DNA of 64,000 nt from Asanoa siamensis (GTDB lineage: Bacteria > Actinomycetota > Actinomycetes > Mycobacteriales > Micromonosporaceae), in NCBI RefSeq assembly GCF_016862555.1, contig NZ_BONE01000022.1, positions 1 through 64,000 of the forward strand, read 5' to 3'. Positions 24,751-44,636 of this stretch are shown here, in pieces. The position numbers and the translations under genes are program-made. Positions within the stretch are counted from its first letter, which is position 1. Every line of letters starts with the position of its first letter. The notes under the pieces were generated by a model. The model made no database searches. It was not told the DNA's origin and saw only the letters and a program-made list of their open reading frames with translations.

Positions 24751-24782
24751 TCTTGCTTTCCTTCCCTCGCAGAAGACAGCAG

Positions 24783-25010: not shown

Positions 25011-25048
25011 CGTTGTCAATTGCGTTGTGCAAATGTCTGAAGTGCAGG

Positions 25049-25894: not shown

Positions 25895-25899
25895 CGGGT

Positions 25900-27188: not shown

Positions 27189-27209
27189 GGGCACGCTCGC
27201 AGAGCCGTT

Positions 27210-28352: not shown

Positions 28353-28856
28353 ATGCCCAAGTTGCATCCCACAAGACTCGCCGGCGCCACGGTGCTTATT
28401 TCGGCGATGCTGGCGAGCGTCGCGGCGCCCGCGGCTCAGGCCGCGCCGGCGGCAGCGCCCAGATTGGAATTGCGAGCGGTGGCCGTCTCTCAGTCGCCAA
28501 TGGCGCCGCCGGAAGGCGAAATCGGCAAGCACGAAAGAGTGCTCGTGATTGAAGTAGACAACAAACTGCACATCCTCGGCTCCGTGGGGGTGTACGTCTA
28601 CCCCAACCGGAAGAAAGTTATAATCGTCTGCGATTCGAACGGCGACAATCTGGAGCCAGGCGTGCAGGTGGATCCTTCGGCGGGCGAACCGCTACTTTAC
28701 CAGGATCCCAATGGATCGCACGCCGGCTGCCTGAACCACGAGATCTACTATCCGGTCCGAAAGTTCCGATTCGCCGCACACCACGCCAACTCGGCAAGTG
28801 CGGTGGCATGGTGGGAGTGGTTCGGCGCACCGCCCCTGCCGCACCCGGACTACTGA
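28353..28856 (+). CDS. secreted hypothetical protein
   Basis: 167 residues from the ATG at 28353, with GGAGGAG at 28342-28348. A classical signal peptide (MPKLHPTRLAGATVLISAML, cleavage after AAQA) exports a mature protein of about 135 residues. The mature part has VLVIEVDNKLHILGSVGVYV, a VIIVCDSNGDNLEPG strand-turn and an aromatic C-terminus (AWWEWFGAPPLPH). Two Cys, one in VCDS and one in AGCLNH, could form a disulfide. I do not recognise the family. It is preceded by the transposase remnant and followed by a second unrelated secreted small protein on the same strand. Confidence 0.72.
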   Translation: MPKLHPTRLAGATVLISAMLASVAAPAAQAAPAAAPRLELRAVAVSQSPMAPPEGEIGKHERVLVIEVDNKLHILGSVGVYVYPNRKKVIIVCDSNGDNLEPGVQVDPSAGEPLLYQDPNGSHAGCLNHEIYYPVRKFRFAAHHANSASAVAWWEWFGAPPLPHPDY

Positions 28857-29077
28857 TCGACGGTCGCGTCGACCGCGAAACCCGCGCCTTTAGCTCATGT
28901 CCTGAGCCGAAGCGACCGAGGAGCGGTGACCACCACGACTCGCGTGAAGGCGATCTGCAACTGGCGACTGCGAGGCTGGCCGTCGGACGCTCTGATGAGC
29001 AAAAGCCCAGTCGTATGCCGCAAAGAAGACATGGTCGTCGTCGGCGGGCCACAGGATTCAGCTTGAAAAGGACAATC

Positions 29078-29530
29078 GTGAAGATCATCCCGAAAACCCT
29101 GGCACGATCCCTTGCTGTTGTGGCACTGGCCGCACCAGCCATCCTGATGGGTAGCGCGCAAGCCAGTGCCGCGGTCCGGATCTTTCCTGCCGATGGGGGC
29201 ACATGTGTCGGCACTCAAGTGATGCGCTGCCTGGAGCTGCGCTACGACGATGCCAGCGAGCGCTTCCGCGCGCGGGCCGAGATTACGGACGTCGCCGGCG
29301 GTAGCGACGCGACCGTCGACATCACCCGGGTGATTGCCGCCGGACAGCTGACTGGTGAATCTCCCGAGCCGAACCCGACGTGGGAGCGCCTGGAGTCTCC
29401 TTTCACGACCTGCACGCAGGGCCGCCAGGTATCGGTGGGCTTCTCCGCCGATTTTCGCTGGAAGAACAACGCGACCGGCGCGGTAGGTAGCGAAACGCGT
29501 TACGGATATGCCGTCTTCACGTGCAGCTGA
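29078..29530 (+). CDS. secreted hypothetical protein
   Basis: 150 residues from the GTG at 29078, chosen because AAAAGGA ends about five bases upstream and the product opens with a proper signal peptide (MKIIPKTLARSLAVVALAAP, cleavage near AQASA). The mature part of about 120 residues contains four Cys (GTCVGTQVMRCLELRY, TTCTQGR and the terminal FTCS), which could form two disulfides. DADVDI-like strands alternate with polar turns, suggesting a small beta-sandwich. I do not recognise the family. A strong terminator-like hairpin follows 15 bases after the stop. Confidence 0.7.
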   Translation: MKIIPKTLARSLAVVALAAPAILMGSAQASAAVRIFPADGGTCVGTQVMRCLELRYDDASERFRARAEITDVAGGSDATVDITRVIAAGQLTGESPEPNPTWERLESPFTTCTQGRQVSVGFSADFRWKNNATGAVGSETRYGYAVFTCS

Positions 29531-29545
29531 GGAAGCCAGCACCGC

Positions 29546-29581
29546 GCCCAGGCTCTAGACGCGAAAGCGCTGAGCCTGGGC
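29546..29581 (+). terminator. hairpin terminator after secreted-protein gene
   Basis: Perfect ten-base arms (GCCCAGGCTC and complement) enclose a 16-base loop that itself holds CGC-GAAA-GCG. It begins 15 bases after the stop at 29530. There is no T-run, as is common for actinomycete terminators. Confidence 0.7.
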
Positions 29582-30392
29582 GGGGCCTGCCGGCCACCAT
29601 CCGCCTGCGACCAACCTCATGACGGACTACACCTAGCCACAGGCCGATCGTGATTGTCGGGTCCCGACGCACGCGCAGCCGGGGGCGACGGCTGGGCTTG
29701 CTGCTGCACCGCCGGTGCGCTGTGGTGGTGCGCGCCGGGCCGTGTCGCCATGTCGATCATTCTCCCAGCGGTGAGCCCGCCCTCCAGCAATGACCTCGAA
29801 CCGATGAACCTTCTGGGGCGTCCGCCCAGTTACAAAGATCTGTGGCGATCGGCTAGCCACACCAAGTCAGGTACTCGGGTGCTGCCCGGCGGTGCACGCA
29901 CCTCACGCCGCCCACCTGCGCAGGTCCCTACGCTGACTGCCCACCCAGAACCCACGGCGCGGTTAACCGCCCACGTACACGTTGGCGTGGGCACACCTGC
30001 GTGTAGCTCGGTTGAGACGGCGCGTTCCGGGATGAGTACGGTCAGGCCGGCGTCGACGAGGTAGCGCGAGGTTAGGTTCAGCGAGGCCCACTGGTCCGGA
30101 CGTAGCCCGGCGTATTACAGGCAGCCGAGAAGGCGACTAGGCGTGACCCGCTGCGGGTTGCTCGCGTACGGCCTCCGGGAGGCGCGGGTCGCAACTAACC
30201 ACACTCTACCCGCGCTCACCTTGTACCAGCCCGAGGACGCTTTGCCCCCACGCCGGACCAGATTGGCCACCGTGTCCGCCGTAGTTACGCTCGTTGACGT
30301 ACAGATATCACCGTCCACGAGCGGACGACTCCTGCCCGGCATGACCGGCACGATCCTTCTCACAATGTGGTGGTACCGAGAAGGAGATGGTC
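29582..30392. other. long stretch without supported gene
   Basis: About 800 bases with no gene I can support. A minus-strand stretch at roughly 29960-30115 reads like degraded protein (GLRPDQWASLNL, then YLVDAGLTVLIPERAV) but has a stop just before it and no start codon, so it may be a decayed gene. The last 60 bases should contain the promoter of the small membrane protein at 30393. Confidence 0.4.
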
Positions 30393-30800
30393 ATGAGCTC
30401 ACCAACTGTCGGCAGCACATCTCGTGTGGTGACGTCGGTCGCCTTGGTCGCTGGTGCGGCGGGGATCTTCCTACAGGGCCTGGCCGGAGTTGACATGCCG
30501 GCCGTGCCCCCCGGTGCGGTGATGCTGATAGTCGCTGCCGCGCTGATAGCCCTGACCCGATGGGGATGGGCGCCGATACTGGGCGTCGTCGTCGCCTCGG
30601 CCGAGGTCGCCGCGCTGGCCGCGACAGGCGCACTGGCCGACCTGACCGACCCGAGCGCTATGGGTATCTGGCTAGCCACCTGGGTTCGGACGATCGGGGT
30701 GGCGTCCGCGTTGGTAGCCGGCGTTGTGGCGATCGTCTCCTGGCGACGAGCCGTCTCCCGTGCACGCGGTGGCTCGGTCGCGGTAGGTGCCAGCCGCTAG
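30393..30800 (+). CDS. small integral membrane protein
   Basis: 135 residues from the ATG at 30393, with AAGGAG six bases before it; an ATG six bases earlier lies inside the ribosome site. Four hydrophobic segments are visible: VVTSVALVAGAAGIFLQGLA, AVMLIVAAALIALT, APILGVVVASAEVAALAATG, and TIGVASALVAGVVAIVSW. A short basic tail follows (RRAVSRARGG). The family is not recognised. It is convergent with the lanthipeptide exporter gene. It could be an accessory or immunity protein of that system, but only the location argues for it. Confidence 0.65.
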   Translation: MSSPTVGSTSRVVTSVALVAGAAGIFLQGLAGVDMPAVPPGAVMLIVAAALIALTRWGWAPILGVVVASAEVAALAATGALADLTDPSAMGIWLATWVRTIGVASALVAGVVAIVSWRRAVSRARGGSVAVGASR

Positions 30801-30936
30801 CTGGCCGGCGAGCCGCGGCACGTCAGTCGAGCACCGGGTCGTCGCCGATCAGGCGACGGCCCGGGCCGTCGCACCACCGCGGGACCGAAGATCTATGTCT
30901 GCGCGGACCTCTATTAGTGATCGTTTGCAAGCTTGC

Positions 30937-32889
30937 CTACGTAGTCGACTCATGCTGGCGCATTTGGAGCCGGTAGAGGTCGGCGTAGCGGCCGTCCAGG
31001 GTCATGAGGGCACCATGGGTGCCGTGCTCGACCATCTGTCCGTCCGCGAGCACGTAAATACGGTCGGCGCAGCGGACCGACGCCAATCGATGAGTAACCA
31101 GGACGACGCTTCGGCCGTCATCGGCCAGGCGGCGCACCCGGTCGAACACCTCGATCTCGGTACGCGGGTCAAGCGCGGCGGTCGGCTCGTCGAAGATCAC
31201 CACCTGGGCGTTTCGAAAGTGGGCCCGGGCAAGGCCAATCCGCTGCCATTGACCGCCAGATAGCTCGGTGCCGCCCCAGAACTCCCGGGCGAGCAGCGTG
31301 TCCCAACCTTGCGCCAGCCGATCGATCACCTCGTCAGCGCGGCCGAATCTCGCGGCCTCGGCGAGCACGTCCGGCAGGGGTGGCCGCGTCGGCCGACCGA
31401 TCGTGACGTTGACTCGTGTGGTGAACGGCCATTGGACAAAGCCTTGGGAAACGAGCGCGACGTTTTGGAACATGCTCGCTCGGTTCAGTTCCCCAGTCGG
31501 GCAGCCGTCCCACAGAACCTGGCCTTCAGTGGGGAGGTACAGGCCGACCAGCAGCTTGGCCAGCGTGCTTTTGCCAGAGCCGTTGTCGCCGACCAGTGCC
31601 ACGACCTCGCCTTGGCGTACGACCACGTCGATTCCCTGCAGCGCCGGCTGCATCGCGTTCGGATATCCGAAAGTGAGATTACGGGCTTCGATGTGCTTAG
31701 GCGGGTTGGCGAGCTGGACGCTCCCGCTGCGCATGGCCTCCGCTTCAGCCCGCTCGCAGGCATGCTGCCAGTCGCGGACGAAGAGCCCATCCTCGTACAG
31801 GTCGTTCATCGCCGTTACCAGCGAGGTAAGACTTTGGGTGCCGGTACGGACCGCGAGCACGGCGGTGCCCGCGACGGCGAGTGGTACCGCCCCCGTGGCG
31901 AGCAACAGGCCGAGGGTGCCGTACGTTGCCACCCGGGCGACGCCCGCTGCGCCGTCAGCCACTAGCAGCGTGCCCGCTTCTCTGGTGGCCAGCCGCGCTT
32001 GTTCCCGCTCGGCGAGCTCGGACAGACGGCGGTAATGGCCAAGCAGGAAGTCCCCTGTTTGGTGGGCACGTACCTCCTCGGCCGCAGAGGGACTCGTCAG
32101 CAGATCGGAAAGCATTTCCAGCTGTCGGTTGAGCTCGGTCCAACGCTTGAACGACATGAAGCGGGCCCGGGCCGCACGCACCGCCCCCCATGCCGGTGGC
32201 AGGACGACAGCGATGAGGAGCGGCAACAATAATGGGTGTAGTACTGCCAGCACCGTGGCGGAGGCGATCAGGCCAGCGGCGGCCTCGGCCAGGCCCACAA
32301 TGCCGGCCGTTACTTGACGAGCCGACAGGGCGCCGCGATGAGCGGCTGCCAGCAGGTTGTGGAACTCGGCATCCTGCAGGACTGCCAACTCCACCCGGAT
32401 TGCCCGCTCGAGCAACCGCGTGTAGGCGAGCCGGTCGACTCGCGGCTCGAGCCGTCCGCTGGCCGCCCGGCCGGCCGACGAAAGGACGCTGCGGATCGCG
32501 CCCGCAGCCGCCACGGTTAGAAGCTCGGGCAGCGCAGCGATCAGCTGTGTGCGGGTCGGGGGTCCGGAAAGCAGCTCTGTCAATGCCTGGTTCGCGGCCA
32601 GCAGCAAGACCGCGGCAGTCGCGCCGGCGAGAACATTCGCGGCGAGGGCGAACGGCAACACCCAACGACCAGCGTCCCACGCGAGCTTGAACGTACCTCC
32701 GACCAGGCGAGGCAGCCGCAGGGCCACGGTCCAGAAGCCGAGGTCGACGCGGGCGCCGTCGTGCTGCACCCAGCCGCTCGCCGCTCGGACGCCGGCACCG
32801 AACAAGGGATCGGTGGTCGGTGGCCCCGCATCCGCCGAGTATCGGTGGCGGCCACGGTGGCGGTAGGTCGCAGTGTGATAGAGGGTCAC
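30937..32889 (-). CDS. lanT: lanthipeptide ABC exporter, fused membrane and ATPase domains
   Basis: About 650 residues from the GTG at 32889, five bases after the lanC1 stop. The N-terminal half has six hydrophobic helices of the ABC transporter type 1 domain. The C-terminal ATPase has Walker A GDNGSGKST near residue 433, signature ELSGGQWQRIG near 541, Walker B VVIFDEPTAALDP near 563 and the switch His in VTHRLAS near 598. There is no N-terminal C39 peptidase, so it exports but does not cleave the leader. It is the only transporter in the cluster and the third gene of the lanA1-lanC1-lanT unit, so it probably exports the products of both precursors. Confidence 0.88.
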   Translation of the reverse strand: MTLYHTATYRHRGRHRYSADAGPPTTDPLFGAGVRAASGWVQHDGARVDLGFWTVALRLPRLVGGTFKLAWDAGRWVLPFALAANVLAGATAAVLLLAANQALTELLSGPPTRTQLIAALPELLTVAAAGAIRSVLSSAGRAASGRLEPRVDRLAYTRLLERAIRVELAVLQDAEFHNLLAAAHRGALSARQVTAGIVGLAEAAAGLIASATVLAVLHPLLLPLLIAVVLPPAWGAVRAARARFMSFKRWTELNRQLEMLSDLLTSPSAAEEVRAHQTGDFLLGHYRRLSELAEREQARLATREAGTLLVADGAAGVARVATYGTLGLLLATGAVPLAVAGTAVLAVRTGTQSLTSLVTAMNDLYEDGLFVRDWQHACERAEAEAMRSGSVQLANPPKHIEARNLTFGYPNAMQPALQGIDVVVRQGEVVALVGDNGSGKSTLAKLLVGLYLPTEGQVLWDGCPTGELNRASMFQNVALVSQGFVQWPFTTRVNVTIGRPTRPPLPDVLAEAARFGRADEVIDRLAQGWDTLLAREFWGGTELSGGQWQRIGLARAHFRNAQVVIFDEPTAALDPRTEIEVFDRVRRLADDGRSVVLVTHRLASVRCADRIYVLADGQMVEHGTHGALMTLDGRYADLYRLQMRQHESTT

Positions 32890-32894
32890 GGCAT

Positions 32895-34025
32895 TCAGGC
32901 CAGCAGAAACAACCTGCTCCAGGCAGGCGGACGGTCGGCCGCCAACGCGAGTAGGACCAGCGCGACGCCGGCAGCCCCACACAGCAGGCCCGGGTTGTCA
33001 ACCGGGCTCCCGCCCTGCTCCCAGTCTTGATAGCCGAACAGCGTGTCCGGCGCGTGTCGCGCCAGGAGAAGGTCGCAGAGGTGCTGTGCCCCATCACGGA
33101 ACGCCGGATGAGCTGTGTCCCACCAGAACAGGGAGGTGGCCAGCAGGTGCCCGGCGATCCCGTGACAGAAGGTGGGGGTCGGATAGGTCGAGTCGTCGAT
33201 GGGTGGGCGCAGGCTTGCGATCGCCAAATCGATGCCCTTCCCTCGGTAACGGTCATCGTCAAGGGCTTCGCCGGCTAGCCAGAGCGCCCGGGCGACTCCT
33301 GGCGCCCCGCTGCACCATGCGAGGCTGACGTCGTCGACGCGCGCTGTGGCGCTCAACCGGTCCGCGATGCGGTGAATTGCCGCGTCCACGACCGGCAGCT
33401 CCACATCCGACCTTGATCGTGCCAAGGCAAGTGCCGCCAGTGGACCGGCTAGGCCATGAGCGAGCCCCGCGTCGGCGCTGCTATCCCTGGTTTGGGTGGC
33501 TAGTGCCGTGGCTGCCGTTCGCAGAGCCGCGGCGCACTCCGGCTCGGCGTCCCTGAACGTGAGGTAGGCGACCCAGCCTGACATGCCGTGGATGGCGTCG
33601 AACTCGAACTCGGATTCGTGAATCAGTGGGAGCACACGGGAATCGAGGCGTGCCCGCAAGCCGCGGTAGCGCCTGCCGCCGCGGCTGAGCATCCACACCG
33701 CCGAAGCAGCGCCACAGATGCCGCTGAACAACGACAACAGAACCTGGGGATCGGACAGGCTCGCTACGGCGTTGCTGAGGAACTGGTGGCCGACGCGGTC
33801 CCACCCAGCGGCGGGTGATCGTTGGTCGAGCACTGCGCAGACGGCCGCGGCGCCGGCGTCGCCAAGCGCAAGTGAGGCCGGATGCCAGCGCGCGACCGAG
33901 AAAACTGTCTGAGCATGGAGCGCGGCGACGCCCGCCTCGAGCCGTTCCGGGGACACCACGGACGCCGCCACGTCCATGCCGAGCGCCGCCGCGCGAGCGG
34001 ACTTCGCTGGATTGAGCAGACCCAA
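32895..34025 (-). CDS. lanC1: lanthionine synthetase C-type cyclase (LanC1)
   Basis: 376 residues from the TTG at 34025, which has AGGGG eight bases upstream and follows the lanA1 stop closely; a GTG at 34046 and an ATG at 34121 inside lanA1 are alternatives. The alpha-toroid cyclase pattern is intact. Zinc ligands are Cys238 (LAWCSGAPG), Cys287 and His288 (TFCHGIAGH). The conserved AHGLAGPL His is at 190 and the FDAIHGMSG Asp at 143. It should bind Zn and add Cys thiols of a precursor core to dehydrated Ser/Thr. It is transcribed after lanA1 and before lanT, and is the most divergent of the three cyclases. Confidence 0.85.
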   Translation of the reverse strand: MGLLNPAKSARAAALGMDVAASVVSPERLEAGVAALHAQTVFSVARWHPASLALGDAGAAAVCAVLDQRSPAAGWDRVGHQFLSNAVASLSDPQVLLSLFSGICGAASAVWMLSRGGRRYRGLRARLDSRVLPLIHESEFEFDAIHGMSGWVAYLTFRDAEPECAAALRTAATALATQTRDSSADAGLAHGLAGPLAALALARSRSDVELPVVDAAIHRIADRLSATARVDDVSLAWCSGAPGVARALWLAGEALDDDRYRGKGIDLAIASLRPPIDDSTYPTPTFCHGIAGHLLATSLFWWDTAHPAFRDGAQHLCDLLLARHAPDTLFGYQDWEQGGSPVDNPGLLCGAAGVALVLLALAADRPPAWSRLFLLA

Positions 34026-34036
34026 CGGGTTGGCCC

Positions 34037-34255
34037 CTAGATGCACATGTTCTGCTCGTGCGCCGCCCGCCGACAGGTGTAGCTGCAGCCGTACTTGCAC
34101 GTGCGAGCCCTCGTCGGGCACGTCTCGGTGTGGTAACTAGGGTGCACCGCCGCCTCCGGCGCGGTGACGTCCGACGGGTGGAGGGGCACGACGTGCAGGT
34201 CCAGATCGAACATCAGATCTTCGGCGGTCATCTGGGGGATCGTCGTAGCGGACAC
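34037..34255 (-). CDS. lanA1: class I lanthipeptide precursor LanA1 (FxLD-type leader)
   Basis: 72 residues from the GTG at 34255, chosen because GAGGAG (plus 34265-34270, read in reverse) lies nine bases upstream; an ATG at 34285 is further from any site. The leader has a TAEDLMFDLDLHVVPL segment whose FDLD matches the FxLD/FNLD-type box read by LanB enzymes. The core region, from about residue 38, has five Cys and seven Ser/Thr. Three are adjacent Thr-Cys pairs (ETC, RTC, YTC), plus KYGCS and a C-terminal NMCI. This gives potential for up to five (methyl)lanthionine rings. It is basic and aromatic. It heads the lanC1-lanT unit and lies back-to-back with lanB1. Confidence 0.85.
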   Translation of the reverse strand: MSATTIPQMTAEDLMFDLDLHVVPLHPSDVTAPEAAVHPSYHTETCPTRARTCKYGCSYTCRRAAHEQNMCI

Positions 34256-34423
34256 TGCTGAGTTCTCCTCTATCTGGAACAGCATGATTCACCGGCGAGC
34301 CGGCGACCGGACCAGGATGCCGCGTCGCTGCTTCATTTGAACTTCATGGTGGAGCAGGCGTTGGCGTTGGCACGCGACGCCTCGTTACCGTGCACTGCGT
34401 TTCAGGACGTAAGGAGAGACCAG
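34256..34423. promoter_or_regulatory. divergent promoter region of lanA1 and lanB1
   Basis: 168 bases separate the lanA1 and lanB1 starts, so both promoters must lie here. On the plus strand a strong ribosome site AAGGAGA is at 34411-34417 and fixes the lanB1 start at 34424. A GC-rich palindrome CCGGC-GA-GCCGG sits at 34292-34303 between the two starts. No regulator gene is in the cluster, and I could not assign -35/-10 boxes safely. Confidence 0.4.
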
Positions 34424-37400
34424 ATGGCCGACCCGCCAAGGTACGCAGCGGCCGGCGGAGCGCTGCTGCGCTTGCCGATGCGGCCATTCGCATCGCTCGC
34501 CGGTACCACGGTCGATCTCAAACCAGATCAGGACGGCTACCCTGAGCGCCTTGGCGGCCTCATCCGGTCATTGTTGGCTGACGCGTACCTCCGAGAAGCG
34601 GCTCTGGTATCCAGCGAGCCGTTACACAGAGCCTTGGGCCGGGTAGAGGCTGGCGAGACGGTTGGCTTGGCCAAGTTGCGCCGAGCGGCGCACACAGCCG
34701 CGCGCTATGGGATGAGAATTGGCAGTCGACCTACGCCGTTCGGCTTACTGGCGGGAGTCGCGGTAGCGGCCTTCGGTAGCGCGGCAAAAGTTCAGTTAGG
34801 TTCACAGCACAGGAAGGGGGTACGCCCCGACGCTCAATGGCTCACCGGATGGTTGGCCGGCATGGAGCGGGAACCAGCGGTTCGTCGCCATCTGCGTGTG
34901 GTGACCAACGACCTCTGCTTCATCCGCGCCGACCGGGTTGTCCTGCCCTACCTGTCGGGCACATCGAGCGATGAACCCGCACACACATATCGAGAATTGT
35001 CGATCAGGTTGATTCCGCCGGTCCGACTGGTTCTCGACCTGGCTGCGACCCCGCTGGCCTACCGTGATCTGGTACGGAAACTGGGCGAGGAGTTTCCGAA
35101 CGCGACCGAGCAGGCGATAGAGGCAATGACCGGGCAGCTCGTGGAGCGGGAGATCCTTCTGACCGATCTGCGTCCACCGTTGACCACGACTGACCCGTTG
35201 GGATACCTGATCGATCGCCTGCGCGGAACCGACCTGCCGCAGCTGGAGATTATGCGCCAGACGGCCGACAGGTTGGCGCACTACGCCGCACAGCCGCTCG
35301 GTGAAGGCTCCGCCGCCTGGCACGCGGCTGTCGACGCCATGCGTGCCGTACACCCTTCCGACAAGCCCCCGATTCAGGTGGACCTGCGGTTCGACGCGGA
35401 CGTCACCCTTCCTCAAGCCGTCGCCGTCGAGACCGCGAGGGCAGCCGAGGTGCTATGGCGGCTCTCGTCGACGCAGCCGGCGCCACCTCATCTCCGCCAG
35501 TACCATGCTGCGTTTATCGAGCGGTACGGAACGGACCGGCTGGTCCCGGTGCTCGAGCTGCTCGACCCCGAGCGGGGCCTCGGGGTGCCGAGCGGATACA
35601 ACGCACCACCGGGCGATCGCCGATCAGATCCGGACGAGCGGGCCGAACGGCGACCATGGGAAGACGGCCTCGCGGCGCTGGCGGAGCGCGCGCTGCTGGA
35701 CGGCGCCAATGAGGTCGTCCTCGATGACGAGCTAGTGGACATGCTGACCGCTGGCGCTCCGTCTCTCCCGCCATCGCCGGACACAATGGAACTCGCCGTG
35801 CAGGTTCTGGCTCAGTCGCAAGCGGCGCTGGACAGAGACGACTTTCGCCTGGTCGTCGCACCGAGTGCAAGCTCGACGTTCGCGGGCTCCGTCTTCGGAC
35901 GGTTCGCTTATCTGTTCGCTGACGCCGGGTACGCGATCGGACCCGCAGTCGCGTCACCCGACCGCGACGCGTTGACGGCGCAGCTTCTGTTCAGCCCGCG
36001 GCATCCTCGCTCCGCGAACGTGCTGCGGGTGCCACGAGTCTGCGACCACATCCTCGCCGTCGGGACATTCGCCGAGAGGGCCGATCCGTCAGTGCTGGGG
36101 ATCACCGATCTCGCCGTCGGAGCGGACGCGCACCGGCTGATTCTGGTGTCCCGCAGGGACGGCCGTGAGGTAGTGCCCGTTTCCCCGCACATGCTCAACG
36201 TCGACTCCTCGACCGGGAACGCGGTCCGCTTGATCCGTGAGATCGGCATGAGCCGCTACCGAAACAATTTCACTTGGTCGTGGGGTGACATCCGCGCGCT
36301 GCCGCGGCTTCCTCGAGTCCGTTATCGATCGACGATTCTAGAGCCTGCGACGTGGCGCGTCGGTGGCGCGCTGCGAGATCGGGAGAAGCCCTGGCCCGAG
36401 TGGCGCACCGAACTGGCCGCGTGGCGTGACCGATGGCAGGTTCCCGACCGCGTACACGCCACGGTCATGGACAATCGTCTGGAGCTGAACCTCACCGTGC
36501 CACTGCACCAGCAGCTCCTGCGCGAGGAGCTGGGCCGTCGACCTGAGACGTTCGTACAGGAGGCGATCGCGACCTACGCGGACAACGGTTGGCTCAACGG
36601 GTATGCGAACGAGGTCGTTGTTCCTTTGACCCGCATCGATGGCCGCGTCGCGAGCGCGAAGGTTCGCCGACGCCCGTGCGCCTCGCGGCGGCCGCACCTG
36701 CCCGGTGGCGAATGGCTGTACGCCAAGCTCTACAGCTCGTCGGCCCGCCACGACGAGCTCCTGGCCGACTATGTCAGCCTTCTGGCCGGGCAGAGACCAT
36801 CCGCGGTGGACCGCTGGCATTTCGTCCGTTACGCCGACCCCGATCCCCACCTGCGGCTGCGGTTCCACGGGCCCTCGACTGTTCTTCACGAGCAGTTGTT
36901 ACCTCGACTGCACGATTGGGCAGCGACGCTGTGCGATGCGGGCTTGGCCAGCCGGATGATCCTGGATGCCTACGATCCAGAGGTAGAGCGGTACGGCGGC
37001 CCGGCTGCGATCGCAGCGGCCGAAAGGGCATTCGCCGCCGACAGCGAGGCGGTTCTCACCCAGCTTCGGCTAGATGACGACGACTGGCCAACCGATCTTC
37101 TCGCCGCGGCCAACTATGTCGACCTGCTAAGTAGTTTCGGGAGGGCGGACTGGTGCGATTGGCTGCTCGGCGATCCGCGCGACGAGCACCATCAGGCTTT
37201 CCAGAAGGTCCGTCGGCAGGCTCTCCGACTTATCGACCCGTTCGACAACTGGCAACACCTATCGTCATCGGACAAGGGAAAGCAGGTGCTCGACGCCTGG
37301 CGTCGGCGCAGGCCGGCGATCGCCGAGTACGGGGCGGCCGTACGCCACCTGGATATCGCGGACTCCATAATGGCTTCGCTGCTGCACATGCACCACAATC

Positions 37401-37498
37401 GCCTTGCCGGCGCTGACCGGAGCGCCGAGGCTCGCTCGATGGCAATCGCCCGGGGGGCGGTCCGGGCGCATCTCGACCGCGCGAAGGCTCGCTCGTGA
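34424..37498 (+). CDS. lanB1: class I lanthipeptide dehydratase (LanB1), full length
   Basis: 1024 residues from the ATG at 34424 (AAGGAGA seven bases upstream). It opens with the usual LLRLPMRPF strand. The large N-terminal glutamylation domain contains RSRATPFG-like IGSRPTPFGLLAGVAVA and MEREPAVRRHL. A C-terminal SpaB_C elimination domain runs from about residue 755 (GGEWLYAKLYSSSARHDELL-like region, then WHFVRYADPDPHLRLRFHG). Having both domains in one chain is class I LanB. It would use glutamyl-tRNA to activate core Ser/Thr and then eliminate glutamate. It overlaps lanC2 by GTGA and is divergent from lanA1. Confidence 0.92.
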   Translation: MADPPRYAAAGGALLRLPMRPFASLAGTTVDLKPDQDGYPERLGGLIRSLLADAYLREAALVSSEPLHRALGRVEAGETVGLAKLRRAAHTAARYGMRIGSRPTPFGLLAGVAVAAFGSAAKVQLGSQHRKGVRPDAQWLTGWLAGMEREPAVRRHLRVVTNDLCFIRADRVVLPYLSGTSSDEPAHTYRELSIRLIPPVRLVLDLAATPLAYRDLVRKLGEEFPNATEQAIEAMTGQLVEREILLTDLRPPLTTTDPLGYLIDRLRGTDLPQLEIMRQTADRLAHYAAQPLGEGSAAWHAAVDAMRAVHPSDKPPIQVDLRFDADVTLPQAVAVETARAAEVLWRLSSTQPAPPHLRQYHAAFIERYGTDRLVPVLELLDPERGLGVPSGYNAPPGDRRSDPDERAERRPWEDGLAALAERALLDGANEVVLDDELVDMLTAGAPSLPPSPDTMELAVQVLAQSQAALDRDDFRLVVAPSASSTFAGSVFGRFAYLFADAGYAIGPAVASPDRDALTAQLLFSPRHPRSANVLRVPRVCDHILAVGTFAERADPSVLGITDLAVGADAHRLILVSRRDGREVVPVSPHMLNVDSSTGNAVRLIREIGMSRYRNNFTWSWGDIRALPRLPRVRYRSTILEPATWRVGGALRDREKPWPEWRTELAAWRDRWQVPDRVHATVMDNRLELNLTVPLHQQLLREELGRRPETFVQEAIATYADNGWLNGYANEVVVPLTRIDGRVASAKVRRRPCASRRPHLPGGEWLYAKLYSSSARHDELLADYVSLLAGQRPSAVDRWHFVRYADPDPHLRLRFHGPSTVLHEQLLPRLHDWAATLCDAGLASRMILDAYDPEVERYGGPAAIAAAERAFAADSEAVLTQLRLDDDDWPTDLLAAANYVDLLSSFGRADWCDWLLGDPRDEHHQAFQKVRRQALRLIDPFDNWQHLSSSDKGKQVLDAWRRRRPAIAEYGAAVRHLDIADSIMASLLHMHHNRLAGADRSAEARSMAIARGAVRAHLDRAKARS

Positions 37499-38811
37499 CC
37501 ACGTCCTTCCCACACCATACCGAATTAGCAGCGGCCGCCATCGTCTCGGATCTCGCCGCGCGCCTGGCTGACCACGAAGCCGTGGCGACGGTCATGACCG
37601 CCCAGGACAACGCGAGAAAGTTGGTCGACGGTTCGGCGCCCGTCTTCTGGTCGGACCTATCTCTTGCGGATGGCTATCCAGCACTCGCGTTGCTGTACGC
37701 CGAACTCGGGCATCTGGATCCTGGGTACCGACGCGTGGCACACGCGTACCTCGAGCAAGCGGCGACCCGGTTGACGGAGGCGCCGCCGGGCGGCCTCTAC
37801 GCGGGATCCGTCGCGCTCGCTTTCGCGGCGTCCTGCGCCGCTCAGCGGCCGACTGACTACGCCGGAATTCTTGAGCCGCTGGACCGTAGCCTCGCGGCAT
37901 GGGTACCGGCGCGAGTTGGGGTCGAACGCGTGCGAATCGAGGCAGGACTGCCGGGAACGACGTTCGCGTCATACGACGTGATCGGCGGGATGACCGGGGT
38001 CGGCCGTTATCTCCTCAACCGAGGACCCGAAACTCGGCCTGCACTAACCGAGATTCTGACCTATCTCTGTGCCTTGACCAAACCTTTCGCTGATGATCTG
38101 CCAGGCTGGTGGGTCACCCATGCACCCGACAGCGACGTCGAGCATGGCGGACATCTGAACCTTGGTTTGGCTCATGGAATCCCCGGCCCCTTAGCCCTGC
38201 TGGCACTGGCTTGGCAGGCGGGGATACGGGTACCGGACCAGGACGCGGCGATCGCCCGCATAGTGGGCTGGCTTTTGGATTGGCGCATCACGGACTCGGC
38301 CGGCGTCGGGTGGCCGGCGACGGTCGAACCAGGTGACCTCGCCGGCCCACCTGACCAGTTGTGTATGTCCCGCAGCAGCTGGTGCTACGGGGTGCCGGGT
38401 GTGGCGCGCGCTCTGCAGCTGGCCGGGCAGGCTTTGGGCGAGTCGAGCTGGACTTCGGCAGCGGTCGCGTCGATCCGGGACATGTTGAACCGACCGAACG
38501 GTTTCTTCGGCATCGAAGATCCGGGGTTGTGCCACGGATGGGCGGGACTGCTGCACCTGGTTCGGCTGATCGGGATCGACGCTGACGACGCGGCGATCAG
38601 CGGGGCCGCAACGGGGCTAGCCGCCAGCGTGGTAGGTCGCTACGACGATAACGCGCCATTCGGATTCCGAGCGACCAATCCGCCGGCTCTCGAAACAGTC
38701 GACCTGGCGGGCTTCCTGGAAGGCGCCGCCGGCGTGGCTTTGGCTCTGGCGTCCTATGTGCATGGCGGGCGGCCCGCAAGTGGGTGGGACGCCGCATTAC
38801 TGGCTCGTTGA
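37495..38811 (+). CDS. lanC2: lanthionine synthetase C-type cyclase (LanC2)
   Basis: 438 residues. The GTG start overlaps the lanB1 stop. Zinc ligands are Cys297 (SSWCYGVPG), Cys346 and His347 (GLCHGWAG). Conserved His227 is in LAHGIPGPL and Asp161 in YDVIGGMTG. It is a complete cyclase of normal length. Its N-terminal layout (FWSDLSLADGYPALALLYAEL) matches LanC3 (YLSLSDPIPSTALLFAEL) better than LanC1. Co-translation with lanB1 and the downstream jmjC and lanA2 suggests it handles LanA2. That is inference, since three cyclases share two precursors. Confidence 0.9.
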   Translation: MTTSFPHHTELAAAAIVSDLAARLADHEAVATVMTAQDNARKLVDGSAPVFWSDLSLADGYPALALLYAELGHLDPGYRRVAHAYLEQAATRLTEAPPGGLYAGSVALAFAASCAAQRPTDYAGILEPLDRSLAAWVPARVGVERVRIEAGLPGTTFASYDVIGGMTGVGRYLLNRGPETRPALTEILTYLCALTKPFADDLPGWWVTHAPDSDVEHGGHLNLGLAHGIPGPLALLALAWQAGIRVPDQDAAIARIVGWLLDWRITDSAGVGWPATVEPGDLAGPPDQLCMSRSSWCYGVPGVARALQLAGQALGESSWTSAAVASIRDMLNRPNGFFGIEDPGLCHGWAGLLHLVRLIGIDADDAAISGAATGLAASVVGRYDDNAPFGFRATNPPALETVDLAGFLEGAAGVALALASYVHGGRPASGWDAALLAR

Positions 38812-38823
38812 CCTAGGAGAAGA

Positions 38824-39711
38824 ATGACGCACGACCAGTACCTGTCAGACTCGGTGTGGGCGGATCTGTTCGCCAAGCAGGAGCAGGTCCACGATCTCGG
38901 TTGGTTCTCTCGGCCTACGAGGTTCGTCGCCGGCGACCGGATCCGGGCCATGATCAGCCGTCAGGCGATCGAGCACTGGGTAGCCTACGGAAATCTGCGA
39001 TATCCCCAGATCAGTCTCAATTTCGCTGGGCACGCTGCTCCGCCCACCTCGTTCACGTGGACCCGCCGGCTGGGTGACCGCCAACTGGTCGGTTGCGCCG
39101 ATCCGCCCAAGATCGAGGCGCAGTTGGCCGAGGGAGCGACCATGGTGCTGATCAATGTCGAGCATTGGCACGAGCCGCTGGGGCTGTTCTGCACCAGACT
39201 GGGCGACGCGACGGGTGCTGCGGTCGAGACATACGGGTACCTCACCGCCCCGGACCAGTTCGGCAGTCAACCGCATCGGGACACCGCGCACGTATTCGTC
39301 GTCCAGATCGAAGGCAACAAGCGCTGGACGCTCTACGACATCCCGGACGACGACGATTGGGAACGCGGCATCATCCCCGGGAGCACCCCGGTCTCCGAGC
39401 AACTCGAGTTGGAGCCTGGTGACGGTCTCTACCTCCCGCCCGGTCTCGGGCACCGCGCGCAGGCGGGAAGTGAGGGGTCGCTCCACCTGACGATCTCGGT
39501 GCAGCCGCCGGCGGTGAGCGATGTCGTCGCAGCGTGGGCGCGGCTGATGGGCCGACGGCAACTGCCGCAGTCCCGACTTCCGCTGGGTTCGGCCGCGCGG
39601 GTCGCAGCGGTACGGAGCACACTCGCCTCACTTGGGGTGGAGATAACTGGCACCACGGCCGCCGAGGTCGCCTCCCTCGTTGCGTCATGGCAACGCCAAG
39701 ACCGCGACTAG
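38824..39711 (+). CDS. JmjC/cupin Fe(II)/2-oxoglutarate oxygenase
   Basis: 295 residues from an ATG with TAGGAGAAG directly upstream, 12 bases after lanC2. The cupin core shows the metal triad His151 and Asp153 (QPHRDTAHVFVVQ) and His210 (YLPPGLGHRAQ). GNKRWTLYDIP between them is typical of JmjC-like ribosomal-oxygenase/cupin_4 enzymes. Such enzymes hydroxylate side chains of proteins or peptides using Fe(II), O2 and 2-oxoglutarate. Its position between lanC2 and lanA2 points to a tailoring step on the precursor core, for example hydroxylation of the Arg, Pro or Asp residues of LanA2. The target residue is not known. Confidence 0.85.
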   Translation: MTHDQYLSDSVWADLFAKQEQVHDLGWFSRPTRFVAGDRIRAMISRQAIEHWVAYGNLRYPQISLNFAGHAAPPTSFTWTRRLGDRQLVGCADPPKIEAQLAEGATMVLINVEHWHEPLGLFCTRLGDATGAAVETYGYLTAPDQFGSQPHRDTAHVFVVQIEGNKRWTLYDIPDDDDWERGIIPGSTPVSEQLELEPGDGLYLPPGLGHRAQAGSEGSLHLTISVQPPAVSDVVAAWARLMGRRQLPQSRLPLGSAARVAAVRSTLASLGVEITGTTAAEVASLVASWQRQDRD

Positions 39712-39815
39712 GAGAGGTGCCGAGGAACGATGAAACGAGAATGAAGATTCCCCTTGGTAGCGTGGCCAGTAGCCAGATCGCGATCGGCGAAGGTCATCCT
39801 ACGAAAGGCGGTACT

Positions 39816-39953
39816 GTGCTTCCAATCTCGTTCGACCAGGACAGCGCGAGTGAGCTCATTGACCTCGATCTCGAGATCGTAACGCTCGCGGAGCCCACGG
39901 ATAGCGACCACGACCGCTACGCCAGCACCCGACCGATTCCGGGCTGCCCGTAA
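39816..39953 (+). CDS. lanA2: class I lanthipeptide precursor LanA2 (short, one Cys)
   Basis: 45 residues from the GTG at 39816, preferred because AAAGG at 39804-39808 is well spaced; the in-frame ATG at 39741 would give 70 residues but lacks a good site. The leader box is ELIDLDLEIVTLAEP, the LanA1 box FDLDLHVV with Ile in place of Phe. The tail ASTRPIPGCP is the likely core: one Ser and one Thr that could be dehydrated, and one Cys, so at most one lanthionine or methyllanthionine ring. It is the last gene of lanB1-lanC2-jmjC-lanA2, and a strong terminator follows 24 bases later. Easily missed in annotation because of its length. Confidence 0.72.
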   Translation: MLPISFDQDSASELIDLDLEIVTLAEPTDSDHDRYASTRPIPGCP

Positions 39954-39977
39954 CAGCTGCAGGCAAGCATCGTAATT

Positions 39978-40019
39978 GTTTGGCGGTGGGCTCGCCTGCC
40001 GCCAAACTTTACTTTCTTT
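39978..40019 (+). terminator. rho-independent terminator after lanA2
   Basis: Perfect nine-base arms GTTTGGCGG and CCGCCAAAC with further pairing inside (GGGC/GCCT side), followed by the T-rich run TTTACTTTCTTT at 40008-40019. It begins 24 bases after the lanA2 stop and 50 bases before the convergent lanC3 end. It probably ends the lanB1 operon. The stem could also stop transcripts from the other side, less efficiently. Confidence 0.85.
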
Positions 40020-40056
40020 CGCTGAAGCCGGGGCCTGCCGGCAACTGCACTTTTCC

Positions 40057-41325
40057 CTATGCCAGAAGGAGTGCAGCGTCCCACGGCGTGGCAGGGGGTT
40101 TACCGCTCCCGAACCGATGCAGTGAAAGACATACTCCAACAGCGCCCTCGATAAAACCATAGTCGTCTGTTCGAGTGGTCTCATCGGGCCGTGACCAGGC
40201 GCGATACCCTGCCTCTGGATTCCCGTCAAAACGAGCGATGATCTCACTAGAAATGGCGTTAAGCCGACCATGGGGCAGTAAGCCCGGAGAATCAGCTGCG
40301 TATCTCCACACCGCATGCAATGTGCCGGCCAATCCGTGACAAAGGCCGTATTCAAACGGTGACCGCGCAGGATTCCTCCTCGCGATGATGGCCCGCATGG
40401 CGTCATCGGCCGATGACGACCGCGCCGCGCCACCAATAGTCAAATTGGCGAGCTGCAGGGCCCGAGCTATCCCAGGCGTTCCATAGCACCATCCGGCGAC
40501 ATGGGTAGCCGCCTTTCCAGTTTTCTGATGGACGGCGAAATATGCCGGCCAGGCTGTTCCGCGAACGTCATCTGTCTTCGCTGCCACGAGCCAGTCAGCC
40601 AACGTGCTGATTGCCTTTTCATGTCCTGGCACCTCGACGCCCTTCTCCGCGGCCAGTGACAAGCCGGCTAGAATACCGGCCGCGCCGTGCGCCATTCCGA
40701 CATTGATGTGTCCCCGGGGGAATTTTGTCGGGTCAGTCCCCACAACCGGTGGATTCACCGCGGTCCAACCGGGCCGGTCAGGCCGCCCAGCGCAGACGAT
40801 GTCCACGAGCGCCGCAGACAGGCGGGCGATCGCGTCCGCGTGCCGGATCGGATCCAGCAGAAAGTACCGCAATATACCGGTCAAGCCGGAGACCACGTCA
40901 TAGTCGGGGAGGTCGAGCCTGCCCGTCGTGAGCCGTCTCGCTATTTCTCCCCTATCCAGCCTGTCCAGCACACGCCCGCTCATCTCCGCATCCAGGCGAG
41001 AGATGGCCGAACGATATCCGCCAGTGACGATGCTGGCCATATGGAGGGCGAACCCGAGGGACATTGGCCCCGCGAACAGTCCGGCGCCAGGCGCTGAACG
41101 CAACTGGGAGGCCGCAGAGGTCAGCACGGAGTGCAGGCGCGGCTCCCATTCGCGATCGTAAGCTGCGAGTTCGGCGAACAGCAGTGCCGTCGAAGGAATA
41201 GGGTCGGAAAGTGACAGGTATATGCGTCCCGGCGGAAAGTCCGTCGACATTCGGCGCCACAGGTCGAAGGCGACTGCCGTTGCGACGTCGCGGGCCTTGC
41301 GACGAAGGTCTCCATCCTGCGACAT
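40057..41325 (-). CDS. lanC3: lanthionine synthetase C-type cyclase (LanC3)
   Basis: 422 residues. Zinc ligands are Cys280 (AGWCYGTPG), Cys329 and His330 (YGLCHGLAG). Conserved His213 is in MAHGAAGI and Asp143 in YDVVSGLTG. All are intact, so it should be active. The ATG shares one base with the lanB2 stop (TGATG), so lanB2 and lanC3 form a translationally coupled dehydratase-cyclase pair. The base composition is visibly less GC-rich than in LanC1 or the flanking core genes. No precursor is coded in this unit. Confidence 0.9.
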   Translation of the reverse strand: MSQDGDLRRKARDVATAVAFDLWRRMSTDFPPGRIYLSLSDPIPSTALLFAELAAYDREWEPRLHSVLTSAASQLRSAPGAGLFAGPMSLGFALHMASIVTGGYRSAISRLDAEMSGRVLDRLDRGEIARRLTTGRLDLPDYDVVSGLTGILRYFLLDPIRHADAIARLSAALVDIVCAGRPDRPGWTAVNPPVVGTDPTKFPRGHINVGMAHGAAGILAGLSLAAEKGVEVPGHEKAISTLADWLVAAKTDDVRGTAWPAYFAVHQKTGKAATHVAGWCYGTPGIARALQLANLTIGGAARSSSADDAMRAIIARRNPARSPFEYGLCHGLAGTLHAVWRYAADSPGLLPHGRLNAISSEIIARFDGNPEAGYRAWSRPDETTRTDDYGFIEGAVGVCLSLHRFGSGKPPATPWDAALLLA

Positions 41326-44300
41326 CAGCGACTTGTTTCCGTCGCGAGCTGGGAGTGGACGAGTTCGCGGAGAAGTGACAGTGACTGCCGTTCAGCCAAA
41401 TCGGAGGTTGCCGAGGACCGGTTGAAATGCATGTGAAGGAGTGACATCACCGCCTCCACCGTAACGTCCGACCGACCCTGCGCCCGACTTCGCAGTTGTT
41501 TACCATAGTTGGCAGCAGATACCGATCTTTGGCGCCAACTAGCCATGAGATCCCGACCAGCGGCGTGCATCGCCAGCCTAGCCCAAGCGTCCGCTCCACC
41601 TGCCAGAGCGGCTAACCTTCGGCGCTGTTCTCGAGATATTCCGTCTGGCCGGCCCTGAGGTATGCCATCGCAGATCATCTCCCGCCACGACGGCAGCCCG
41701 AGGGACATCATGATGTTGAGGTAATTGATCGCCGCCAGTTCGGGTGTTGTGACACCGAGCCGCTTAGCGATCCGTCCGCCCAGTTGAGCTAACGTTGCCT
41801 GACTGTCCCGCCAGAACAGAGCCTCTGCGGATCGCATGACCGACCCCGGCCCATAACGCCATGTCTCAGGCACGTATGTGGCTAGGTCAAAATCGCGCAG
41901 GCCTCCGCGGGCCCATTGCCTTCGTCCCCACTCGGCCACCTTGGTGAGAATCAGTGGATCCGACTGTATCCGCAGTCGAATGTGTTCGGATGGGACGTTG
42001 TATCTGACGAAGAACCATTGAGTGGGCACATCCAGCAGACTGGACACCAGTTGTGCCAGCGACTCGGTCAGGAAGGCGTCCGTGCTACCGCTGGAAACAT
42101 ACAGTCGAAAGTATGCCCAGCCTTCGCCTGGAAAATGAACCGCCGTGCGGCGTTCCGTCGCACCGGCCCAGCAATCTCGGCCCTTGACCGCGATTCGGGG
42201 ACGGGCCGGCCGCCGCGCCTCAGGTGTGGCGAACAAAGGCACCGTCAACTCGTGCTCTCGCCCGGCCAGCCAGTCGGTGGCTCCGAGCGTCTTGCTGAGA
42301 TCCTCGAAAATCAGAGTCGATGGCGTCCGCTCCAGCTGTCTTCGCAGCATTGACCGATCGCCAGGAGTCGAGAGATTGAGCGACGTGCGGGTGCCGTCGT
42401 GGCTAACGACGATGTCATCCGGCACTCTCAGCCGGCGCTGCCAGGACGCGACCGTCGTGGTCCACTCCGCCTCGCGAGCGCGCACGCCATCACGCAGTTC
42501 GAGCGGATGCCAGCGTGCGGGGTAGAGGACCGACCGCCCGTATCGAACCCGCGGCAAGCGCGGCCAAGCGTCCAATGTCCGCCAGCTCCACGTTCTGAAC
42601 GGCCGGGAGTTCAGTTCCTCGATCCGATCCAGGAGGCGAACCAGGTTCGGCGCAAGGTCCGCTGCCAGCATATGGGGCGACGTCACGCTTATTTCGTGGC
42701 CGTCGACCAGGTCGACCACGTGGAGCCCTTCGTTGCTGGCATAGAGACCAAGCTTGTCGGCACTCAGATACGTGGCTTTCGGGTCCGGCCCAGAGGGCCA
42801 GATGTCCGAACGTATAGGGCCGTCGAGCCATAGGCAACGGCGAGTCTGCGCCGGCGCACGGGCCACATTGAAGTGACGGGCAACCGATGGTCGAAACTGA
42901 AGTTGAACCCGCTCCGGCCCGTCCTCTCGGTCATGCTGGGCGATCATCGCGGACATTGTTTCGGTCACGCCGATCCCGTCAAGGAACCGGCCGAACGTCC
43001 GTCCGGCCTGCAACGCGGCGCCGTGCGGCAACACCGATAACATATACTCGCCATGATCGATTGCTTCAACGCCCGACGCGTGGATCTGGATCGTCACGTC
43101 GGCCGAGGGCCAGACAGGCGCATCAGGCTCGTCGTTCAGGTGATCGATGAGCCGTTCGCCAAGTTCTAGCTCGTTGCTCTCGGACGACAGCGCTGAGTTC
43201 GCCGCATCGGCAAGCCGGGTCAGCCCCTCGACGGGATGGGCGGACGGGGGTCGCAACGACCGGCTACTCGGAGGACGGACAAACTCCGCGGGAACGCCGA
43301 TGCCTCGGTTCGGGTCAATGACCTGCATCACGGGCACAGGGTTCATCAGCCCGAATTGCTCCACAAAGTCTCGGTGATAGTCGACGAGGCTCGTGACGCG
43401 GGAACGGGCGGGGCTGACCCGCCCGAGCGCCGAAACAGCGCTTTCCACATGGCGCAGGACGTGCCGTGGGAGGCGAAAGTCGATGTCCATCGTCAGATCG
43501 ACCTGCACCGAGTTGATCCCCATGTGGTCTCCACCGCCACGCGTGAGAGCAGCGACTTCTGCCAGCTGGGCCCCTCCGGCGCCGAGCTTCGAGGTCTCGT
43601 ATGCCGTCACAGCGGACCGTACGGCCCGGAGGTGCGCGGCGGACGGCGCCGTGGCGCTTGGGTTCAATGACAGCAGTCGGGCGATCGGGTCAGCCACTTG
43701 TAGCGCGGTCCAGAGCTCGCTCACCAGGAATCCGTAGTCGAGAAGGTGTTGCACAGCTGACCACACGTCAGCTTCGGATGTCTTGGGGAATGCCGAGCGT
43801 GTTTCGCTGACAACTTGCCCGATCGGCGTCGCGGTGCAACAGAGGTCAACCAAGAATACGATTGGAGCCGTCAGGCGGACCGAGGCCTCCTGATGCCCTC
43901 CGGTGACGCGGCTCGAAGGGCCGTAATAATCCTCGATGGTCGGCAGGACAAGGCGTTCACCGCGTTGATGGCAGGAGGGATGAAGCCAGACGCGGACCTG
44001 GGGGATGTCTGCCGCATTCTTCTCCCAGGCACGGATGGTGCTGGCCACCCATTCTCCGTCAGGCCGAACCACCTTGCGATGATCGTTGCCGTATCGAAGG
44101 TGTGTCCGGTCCGCGACATGCGCGAGCGCAACTCCCGCCATGAGGCCGAATGGCGTGGCTCGTGACCGGATGCGAGCGACATAACGCGAGACTCCCAGTG
44201 CGATCCGCTTAAGGGCTGCCCATTCCACCAGGCCATTCCTGGCCTGGTCGAGTTCAGCGCTGAGCGAAGGGCTGGCGAGGGCGATCGCCTCGGACAACAG

Positions 44301-44462
44301 AGGATCGGATGTTACGTCTGCGAGGAATCGGGTGATCTCTCGACGTGACTGCGGTGTAGGCTGCTCAAACGAGTCCATGGGTCGCGGCAGCGCGTCCTTC
44401 GCGAACATGGAGAGCCGGGCAAGCACGACATCTCCAGCAGTGAAGAGTTCTCTGCGCCCCAT
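41325..44462 (-). CDS. lanB2: class I lanthipeptide dehydratase (LanB2), full length
   Basis: 1045 residues from the ATG at 44462, which has GGAGAGAC directly upstream; a longer frame to 44582 is not supported. It shows the LanB N-terminal region (VSRYVARIRSRATPFGLMAG, DRTHLRYGNDHRKVVRPD) and a C-terminal SpaB_C elimination domain from about residue 775 (GEGWAYFRLYVSSGSTDAF, WFFVRYNVPSEHIRLRI). It has the same architecture as LanB1 but is clearly diverged, not a recent duplicate. It is coupled to lanC3. Which precursor it modifies is open: LanA1, LanA2, or one elsewhere in the genome. Confidence 0.92.
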   Translation of the reverse strand: MGRRELFTAGDVVLARLSMFAKDALPRPMDSFEQPTPQSRREITRFLADVTSDPLLSEAIALASPSLSAELDQARNGLVEWAALKRIALGVSRYVARIRSRATPFGLMAGVALAHVADRTHLRYGNDHRKVVRPDGEWVASTIRAWEKNAADIPQVRVWLHPSCHQRGERLVLPTIEDYYGPSSRVTGGHQEASVRLTAPIVFLVDLCCTATPIGQVVSETRSAFPKTSEADVWSAVQHLLDYGFLVSELWTALQVADPIARLLSLNPSATAPSAAHLRAVRSAVTAYETSKLGAGGAQLAEVAALTRGGGDHMGINSVQVDLTMDIDFRLPRHVLRHVESAVSALGRVSPARSRVTSLVDYHRDFVEQFGLMNPVPVMQVIDPNRGIGVPAEFVRPPSSRSLRPPSAHPVEGLTRLADAANSALSSESNELELGERLIDHLNDEPDAPVWPSADVTIQIHASGVEAIDHGEYMLSVLPHGAALQAGRTFGRFLDGIGVTETMSAMIAQHDREDGPERVQLQFRPSVARHFNVARAPAQTRRCLWLDGPIRSDIWPSGPDPKATYLSADKLGLYASNEGLHVVDLVDGHEISVTSPHMLAADLAPNLVRLLDRIEELNSRPFRTWSWRTLDAWPRLPRVRYGRSVLYPARWHPLELRDGVRAREAEWTTTVASWQRRLRVPDDIVVSHDGTRTSLNLSTPGDRSMLRRQLERTPSTLIFEDLSKTLGATDWLAGREHELTVPLFATPEARRPARPRIAVKGRDCWAGATERRTAVHFPGEGWAYFRLYVSSGSTDAFLTESLAQLVSSLLDVPTQWFFVRYNVPSEHIRLRIQSDPLILTKVAEWGRRQWARGGLRDFDLATYVPETWRYGPGSVMRSAEALFWRDSQATLAQLGGRIAKRLGVTTPELAAINYLNIMMSLGLPSWREMICDGIPQGRPDGISREQRRRLAALAGGADAWARLAMHAAGRDLMASWRQRSVSAANYGKQLRSRAQGRSDVTVEAVMSLLHMHFNRSSATSDLAERQSLSLLRELVHSQLATETSR

Positions 44463-44636
44463 GTCTCTCCGCTTCTTCGACCTGGAAGATCGGCATGGAT
44501 CCGCCCGGAGCTGGCGCGACCAATACTCTTCTTGCTCGCGATGTCGCCGTTGCGGCAACAGCATAACGGTTGCCGTCTTCACATCAGCTTCTCCGACGGT
44601 CGACGCTACTTTCGTTGTGGTCGAGCGGGCGTCGCG

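Follow-up and report, generated by a model that had tools for sequence, protein, structure and literature searches.

The stretch analysed here, referred to below as the window, is the initial 64 kb of contig 22 in the 8.78-Mb assembly of the soil actinomycete Asanoa siamensis. Between positions 30937 and 44462 it contains a class I lanthipeptide locus with two genes for LanB dehydratases, three for LanC cyclases and one each for an exporter and a JmjC oxygenase, as well as two short open reading frames (ORFs) with LanA-type leaders (Table 1). We consider, with a probability of roughly two in three, that this locus consists of two adjacent class I pathways, the first of which is a recurring variant with two cyclases, rather than of a single system requiring all three units. 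This first pathway would be formed by lanA1-lanC1-lanT on one strand (unit 1) and lanB1-lanC2, possibly with jmjC, on the other (unit 2), both read outward from one intergenic region; the second would be formed by lanB2-lanC3 (unit 3). Using the inferred starts, neighbouring genes within a unit overlap or stand 5 to 29 nt apart. The start retained for lanC1 (34046) overlaps the end of lanA1; in some comparisons the lanC1 query began one codon upstream of this proposed GTG (34049 instead of 34046).

Both LanB proteins contain the Pfam glutamylation (PF04738) and elimination (PF14028) domains at nearly complete model length, and three proteins match the LANC_like model with 118, 176 and 143 bits for a cut-off of 23.2. 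The ABC protein is recognised by ABC_tran and further ATPase models, no peptidase domain being matched by Pfam in the lanT product, and the jmjC product matches JmjC_2 (67.5 bits) with an HxD...H metal-binding motif inside the match. Screening the six frames of the window for the motif [FIL][DN]LD[LIV], preceded by a start codon and followed by a Cys and a stop, retrieved only lanA1 and lanA2; the background of this screen amounts to 0.07 per window in first-order Markov sequences (2 hits in 30), and its application to seven other loci (122 kb) yielded no hit. Pfam and the motif screen thus agree with the gene content listed in the initial annotation, lanA2 being recovered by motif and position only. 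The catalytic Asp and His as well as the Cys, Cys-His zinc ligands, the latter already reported there, are retained in lanC1, lanC2 and lanC3, and these five residues (Asp, His, Cys, Cys, His) are present in 43 of 43 aligned LanC sequences. Both dehydratases are indeed full length. Among 28 columns that are near-invariant across 33 other LanB proteins, lanB1 retains all 28 and lanB2 26. In the Protein Data Bank, 5ehk ('Lantibiotic dehydratase') is the best match of lanB1 (461 bits) and lanB2 (232 bits), all three LanC proteins have 8byk as first match, followed by NisC (2g02), and the JmjC protein matches histidyl hydroxylases (NO66/MINA) as well as the arginine hydroxylase acting on ribosomal L16. 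Two-domain LanB proteins, separate LanC proteins with a zinc site and a lanA1 product combining an F(N/D)LD-type leader with a Ser/Thr/Cys core place the locus in class I. The C-terminal core of lanA1 contains five Cys, includes a CxxTC motif and terminates in MCI.

The arrangement lanT(-)-lanC1(-)/lanB(+)-lanC2(+) is shared with three other loci (locus and genome handles, L and G, are our own), namely L068 in G217, a genome of the window's own family, L099 in Nonomuraea basaltis and L103 in N. glycinis. In all three, a LanA-type ORF lies on the same side as lanC1, and in N. glycinis a JmjC ORF follows 32 nt past lanC2. The precursors and enzymes had initially been described as unpaired, a description contradicted by this conserved layout; because the divergent arrangement recurs in these three loci, lanA1 would have its natural dehydratase in lanB1, on the other side of the divergent promoter region. 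The same types of genes are also found in other arrangements: N. guangzhouensis (L096) has lanB-lanC2 opposite lanC1 and two LanA-type ORFs, and its weaker ABC match (191 bits) lies on the far side; in G652 (L069) lanA is followed in line by a LanB divided between two frames, by lanC2, by an ABC gene and by lanC1; and G040 (L033) has lanA-lanB-lanC-lanC1 in line. C1-type and C2-type LanC proteins form two deep groups in the LanC tree (sequences of at least 330 residues), and one of each is paired with one LanB and a LanA in units 1 and 2 of the window and in six other loci (L033, L068, L069, L096, L099, L103). With lanC1 as query, matches at E <= 1e-12 were obtained in 13 of 354 family genomes, its own genome included; some of the weaker matches are C2-type proteins (e.g. 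in G661 and G342), so that for this query the C1-type LanC proteins number fewer than 13. A lanC2 pattern scan of genome contigs gave 39 matches, with no relative among them. In G661 (L065) a relative of lanC2 (55%) stands near what appear by eye to be tandem LanM-like and ABC/peptidase-like ORFs, with no LanB within the 20 kb examined.

Within the LanC tree, lanC1 forms a clade with the LanC1 proteins of L096, L068, L033 and L069 (98/99 in one tree, 97/92 in another). A CxxTC motif occurs in a LanA of all five loci of this clade, as compared with 9 of the 56 other loci having a LanA candidate (Fisher p 3.4e-4, a guide only, the motif having been picked after viewing the sequences and the loci being related), and within the window it sits in lanA1 and not in lanA2. 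The underlying survey covered 102 loci, 12 being skipped as overlapping copies or as having no LanB, and found candidates in 61 and none in 41; L103 and L084 are among the latter, the LanA of L103, which overlaps a LanB frame, having been read separately. Since the loci of the LanC1 clade carry CxxTC, LanC1 may well serve the rings formed by this motif.

On the other hand, several observations weigh against a two-cyclase pathway of this kind. The LanC1 proteins of N. basaltis and N. glycinis are C1-type but fall outside the five-locus clade, and the LanA peptides of these two loci are devoid of CxxTC. Virgisporangium aurantiacum (L066/L098), which has the nearest relatives of lanB1 (54%) and lanT (68%) together with a LanA and a lanC2 at 52%, is without lanC1 in the stretch examined; LanC1 is therefore not indispensable. 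Moreover, WCYG is found in 41 of 43 LanC sequences, the exceptions being lanC1 itself (WCSG) and the LanC1 of N. guangzhouensis (WCHG), and among 44 LanC proteins lanC1 has the shortest spacing both between the catalytic Asp and His (47 residues, the rest having 60-81) and between the His and the first zinc Cys (48, the rest having 62-109), i.e., 13 and 14 residues below the next shortest. These short spacers and the lost WCYG tyrosine indicate that lanC1 may be weak or non-catalytic, and could mean that it is a scaffold or a leftover, LanC2 alone closing the rings of LanA1. Yet lanC1 retains all five catalytic and zinc residues, and a C1-type LanC stands beside LanB-LanC2 in each of the six other loci, four of them in the clade of lanC1; we accordingly regard a non-working LanC1 as unlikely. 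In the LanC1 of N. glycinis (L103, 8339-9568), the segment from the catalytic His to the first zinc Cys includes a long repeat of the GTGGAETGGAE type.

Unit 3 belongs to a separate lineage. In the LanB tree, which required at least 800 residues and left out the split LanB of L069, lanB2 groups with the LanB proteins of L084 (G665) and L176 (G040) (100/100), and lanC3 with the LanC proteins of the same two loci (98/93), so that the two genes are inherited jointly. The L176 set is complete (lanA-lanB-lanC) and has no units 1 and 2 beside it. L084 consists of lanB-lanC and a divergent ORF whose leader-like motif is DLDFDL and whose end is rich in Ser, Thr and Cys; this ORF fails the stricter LanA motif filter. 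The three units had been supposed to fit together, and their occurrence alone with their own gene sets had been named as what would speak against this; such occurrence was seen in part. The supposition holds for units 1 and 2, which recur together in a conserved layout and are found without lanB2-lanC3 in the stretches examined; it does not hold for unit 3, whose relatives occur alone as lanA-lanB-lanC in L176 and probably in L084. Searches of 354 family and 397 order genomes listed no lanB2 relative with more than 39% identity; as two candidates were scored per genome, a nearer relative in a genome with many LanB genes could escape. A recent duplication of one lan cluster was ruled out, lanB1 and lanB2 being 32-33% and lanC2 and lanC3 35% identical and falling in different clades; this, together with the intact enzymes, bears out the earlier statement that the locus is not a simple decayed duplication.

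In order to estimate how common such gene sets are, 80 named LanB loci were retained from at least 492 relatives, with flanks of up to 10 kb, some ending at contig ends, so that gene counts are lower bounds. One LanB is accompanied by one LanC in 66 of these loci, by two in 5 and by none in 4, and two LanB genes by two LanC in 3 and by none in 2. The second LanC of two of the five loci with one LanB and two LanC (L161 and L143) is weak or frame-split, the cases taken as real being L096, L099 and L103. The combination of two LanB and three LanC is found in none of the 80 and, outside them, in G040, where two LanB, three LanC and one LanT lie within 16.5 kb with unrelated genes interspersed. This G040 locus would be in line with one integrated pathway, in which both precursors share both dehydratases, the three cyclases and the exporter to give a two-component lantibiotic, as would the single exporter recognised in the locus and the distance of 103 nt between the convergent units (39953 to 40057). 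However, neither LanB of that G040 locus falls in the lanB2 clade, and the equal gene counts therefore arose separately; in addition, L068, L099 and L103 have units 1 and 2 without lanB2-lanC3, and L176 and L084 have sets of the lanB2-lanC3 type without units 1 and 2. Together with the absence of this combination from the 80 loci, these observations make a single integrated pathway quite improbable.

In the 64 kb of the window, no LanA-type motif ORF adjoins lanB2-lanC3 besides lanA2 on the opposite strand, and lanA2 itself is a candidate precursor suggested by its leader motif and position. When its leader was compared with 72 others, those of L097 and L178 matched best and that of the L176 LanA came third; because the two better-scoring precursors come from loci that have no LanB of the lanB2 clade, the pairing of lanA2 with lanB2 is weak, and lanA2 was dropped as a proven substrate of lanB2. 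This ranking also counts against the two-pathway reading and is compatible with lanB2-lanC3 being a passenger that has lost its own LanA, lanA2 then being a second, JmjC-coupled substrate of the first pathway or a chance ORF. The deviation of lanB2 at 2 of the 28 near-invariant columns and its different letter make-up point in the same direction, but both lanB2 and lanC3 are full length, with the examined catalytic motifs and no internal stop or frameshift, and we find a passenger decidedly unlikely.

Descriptions of class I pathways usually feature a single cyclase, and the ring pattern is thus credited to the peptide and one enzyme. In the two-pathway reading that we favour, LanB1 would recognise the FDLDL leader of LanA1 and dehydrate Ser and Thr residues by glutamylation followed by elimination; the thioether rings would be closed by two zinc cyclases of different LanC lineages, LanC2 and LanC1, with LanC1 presumably handling the C-terminal CxxTC rings, and the product would be exported by LanT. 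The JmjC enzyme would probably hydroxylate one core residue, and the leader may be cut off by a separate protease, possibly the nearby subtilase. The second pathway would use the co-inherited pair lanB2-lanC3, whose most likely substrate in this locus is lanA2. A more far-reaching proposal, which we judge a long shot, is that the product is a lantibiotic of two components, hydroxylated by JmjC, and that three cyclases of as many LanC lineages share out ring closure between the two peptides, LanC1, with its trimmed spacers and no WCYG tyrosine, being specialised for the C-terminal CxxTC rings; if this were true, the identity of the acting LanC, rather than a single cyclase, would determine class I ring topology.

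JmjC genes accompany 4 of the 80 named loci (L103, L114, L115 and L117); their products are 25% identical to that of the window and retain HxD...H. The occurrence of such genes near LanB-LanC in these loci and in the window points to hydroxylated class I lanthipeptides. The JmjC query matched 238 of 397 order genomes at E <= 1e-10, and the two best outside matches examined are located in L085, where no RiPP (ribosomally synthesized and post-translationally modified peptide) gene was recognised, and in L086. The latter (G178) has two tandem JmjC genes beside a gene that by eye is YcaO-like and is likely a RiPP cluster with two oxygenases. The three Streptomyces loci L114, L115 and L117 combine JmjC, LanB and LanC with a short LanA ending in SISC(E/D)GSC(H/T)RP(Y/F)CI. 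In the Asanoa group, L026-L031 (G001, G002, G003) contain paired LanB genes, SARP-like regulators and a protein that by eye is DUF692/MNIO-like, besides an ABC transporter (42% to lanT in G002/G003) and Cys-rich precursors with TCNCFGSC or TCNCYGSC. No LanC was detected in them by tblastn or hidden Markov models, and they represent a LanB RiPP without cyclase; with other precursors and LanB proteins in a separate clade, they were ruled out as the same system.

Concerning the genomic setting, 2-kb bins between 16 and 44 kb have a G+C content of 0.61-0.69 and those on the two flanks one of 0.67-0.76, a contrast that is real but not sharp. Synteny on the left with the Asanoa-group genome G003 ends at about 16.19 kb, near a repeated element (16187-16453) with copies on the own contigs C75 and C152 and in G001; a clean empty site was not shown, the left flank being syntenic with G003 but the right flank matching scattered places. 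The lower-G+C stretch also carries two sigma-70-family factors. Owing to the S8 subtilase encoded within it, the earlier statement that LanP is absent is insecure; V. aurantiacum has, near lanT, relatives of both this subtilase (39%) and a sigma factor (44%). The window subtilase scores higher against copies in G217 and G669 that are not linked to lan genes than against the lan-linked copy of G669, and it was dropped as a proven LanP, being closer to copies far from lan genes; it is a candidate leader protease and no more.

Table 1. Features of the lanthipeptide locus and its surroundings (window coordinates)
Feature	Position	Strand	Description
lanA1	34037..34285	-	82-aa class I precursor; FDLDL leader motif
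lanC1	32895..34046	-	C1-type LanC cyclase; inferred GTG start at 34046
lanT	30937..32889	-	ABC exporter, permease and ATPase; inferred GTG 5 nt past lanC1
lanB1	34424..37498	+	full-length LanB dehydratase; inferred ATG downstream of AAGGAGAG Shine-Dalgarno
lanC2	37495..38811	+	C2-type LanC cyclase; overlaps lanB1 stop
jmjC	38824..39711	+	PF08007 oxygenase; HxD...H metal motif
lanA2	39741..39953	+	70-aa candidate precursor; IDLDL leader motif, one core Cys; 29 nt past jmjC
lanC3	40057..41325	-	LanC cyclase, lanB2-associated lineage
lanB2	41325..44462	-	full-length LanB dehydratase, separate lineage; inferred ATG at 44462
S8 subtilase	21313..24750	-	1145 aa; candidate leader protease, 6 kb from lanT, on lanT's strand
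Transposase fragment	27210-27761		
Mostly lower-G+C stretch with locus	16190..44600	.	left border about 16.19 kb; right border undefined

Actinobacterial class I clusters for lanthipeptides of the microbisporicin (NAI-107)/planosporicin kind resemble the window in having a two-domain LanB, a LanC, an ABC exporter and an FDLD leader. They differ from it in that their core pattern TSxSxCTPGC...CC, which was found in nine candidate precursors of the loci compared, is absent from lanA1 as well as from lanA2, and in that the window adds a JmjC oxygenase and, from a different lineage, a further cyclase. The closest layouts, those of L103 and L099, share lanA-lanC1-lanT/lanB1-lanC2, and L103 also has a JmjC gene after lanC2; in contrast to the window, they are without lanB2-lanC3 (in the stretch examined) and lanA2, their LanC1 falls outside the five-locus clade, and the L103 JmjC is, as given above, of low identity.

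As for published systems, a 2010 survey (PMC3091789) reports for Frankia EAN1pec I a pair of LanC genes, Franean1_1333 and _1336, besides one two-LanC cluster without precursor and two LanB proteins in Pedobacter heparinus; a 2019 paper (PMC6768957) reports two lanC genes in a cluster of Merdimonas faecis. By these descriptions, to which the comparison is confined, the Frankia and Merdimonas clusters are like the window in having two LanC proteins, an arrangement mentioned there as unusual. A cluster with two short LanB proteins is described for Ktedonobacteria in PMC6497799. A 2020 mining study (PMC7268733) uses none of the terms 'JmjC', 'cupin', 'dioxygenase' and 'multiple LanC' in its main text, and among the further papers listed by the literature searches, mostly from non-subscription journals, none was recognised as describing a two-cyclase class I pathway or a JmjC-modified lanthipeptide. 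JmjC proteins (PF08007) are reported in RiPP-like contexts (PMC12710340), and BipG, from the RiPP pathway to biphenomycin, is presented as a gamma-ornithine hydroxylase of the JmjC type (PMC12707348); judging from that description, BipG is like the enzyme proposed here a JmjC oxygenase acting on a RiPP precursor, though of a different RiPP class. Two-LanC clusters having already been in print in 2010, the locus is a variant and not a new class; the repeated occurrence of two LanC lineages alongside a single LanB offers a direct way to ask whether separate cyclases close separate rings.

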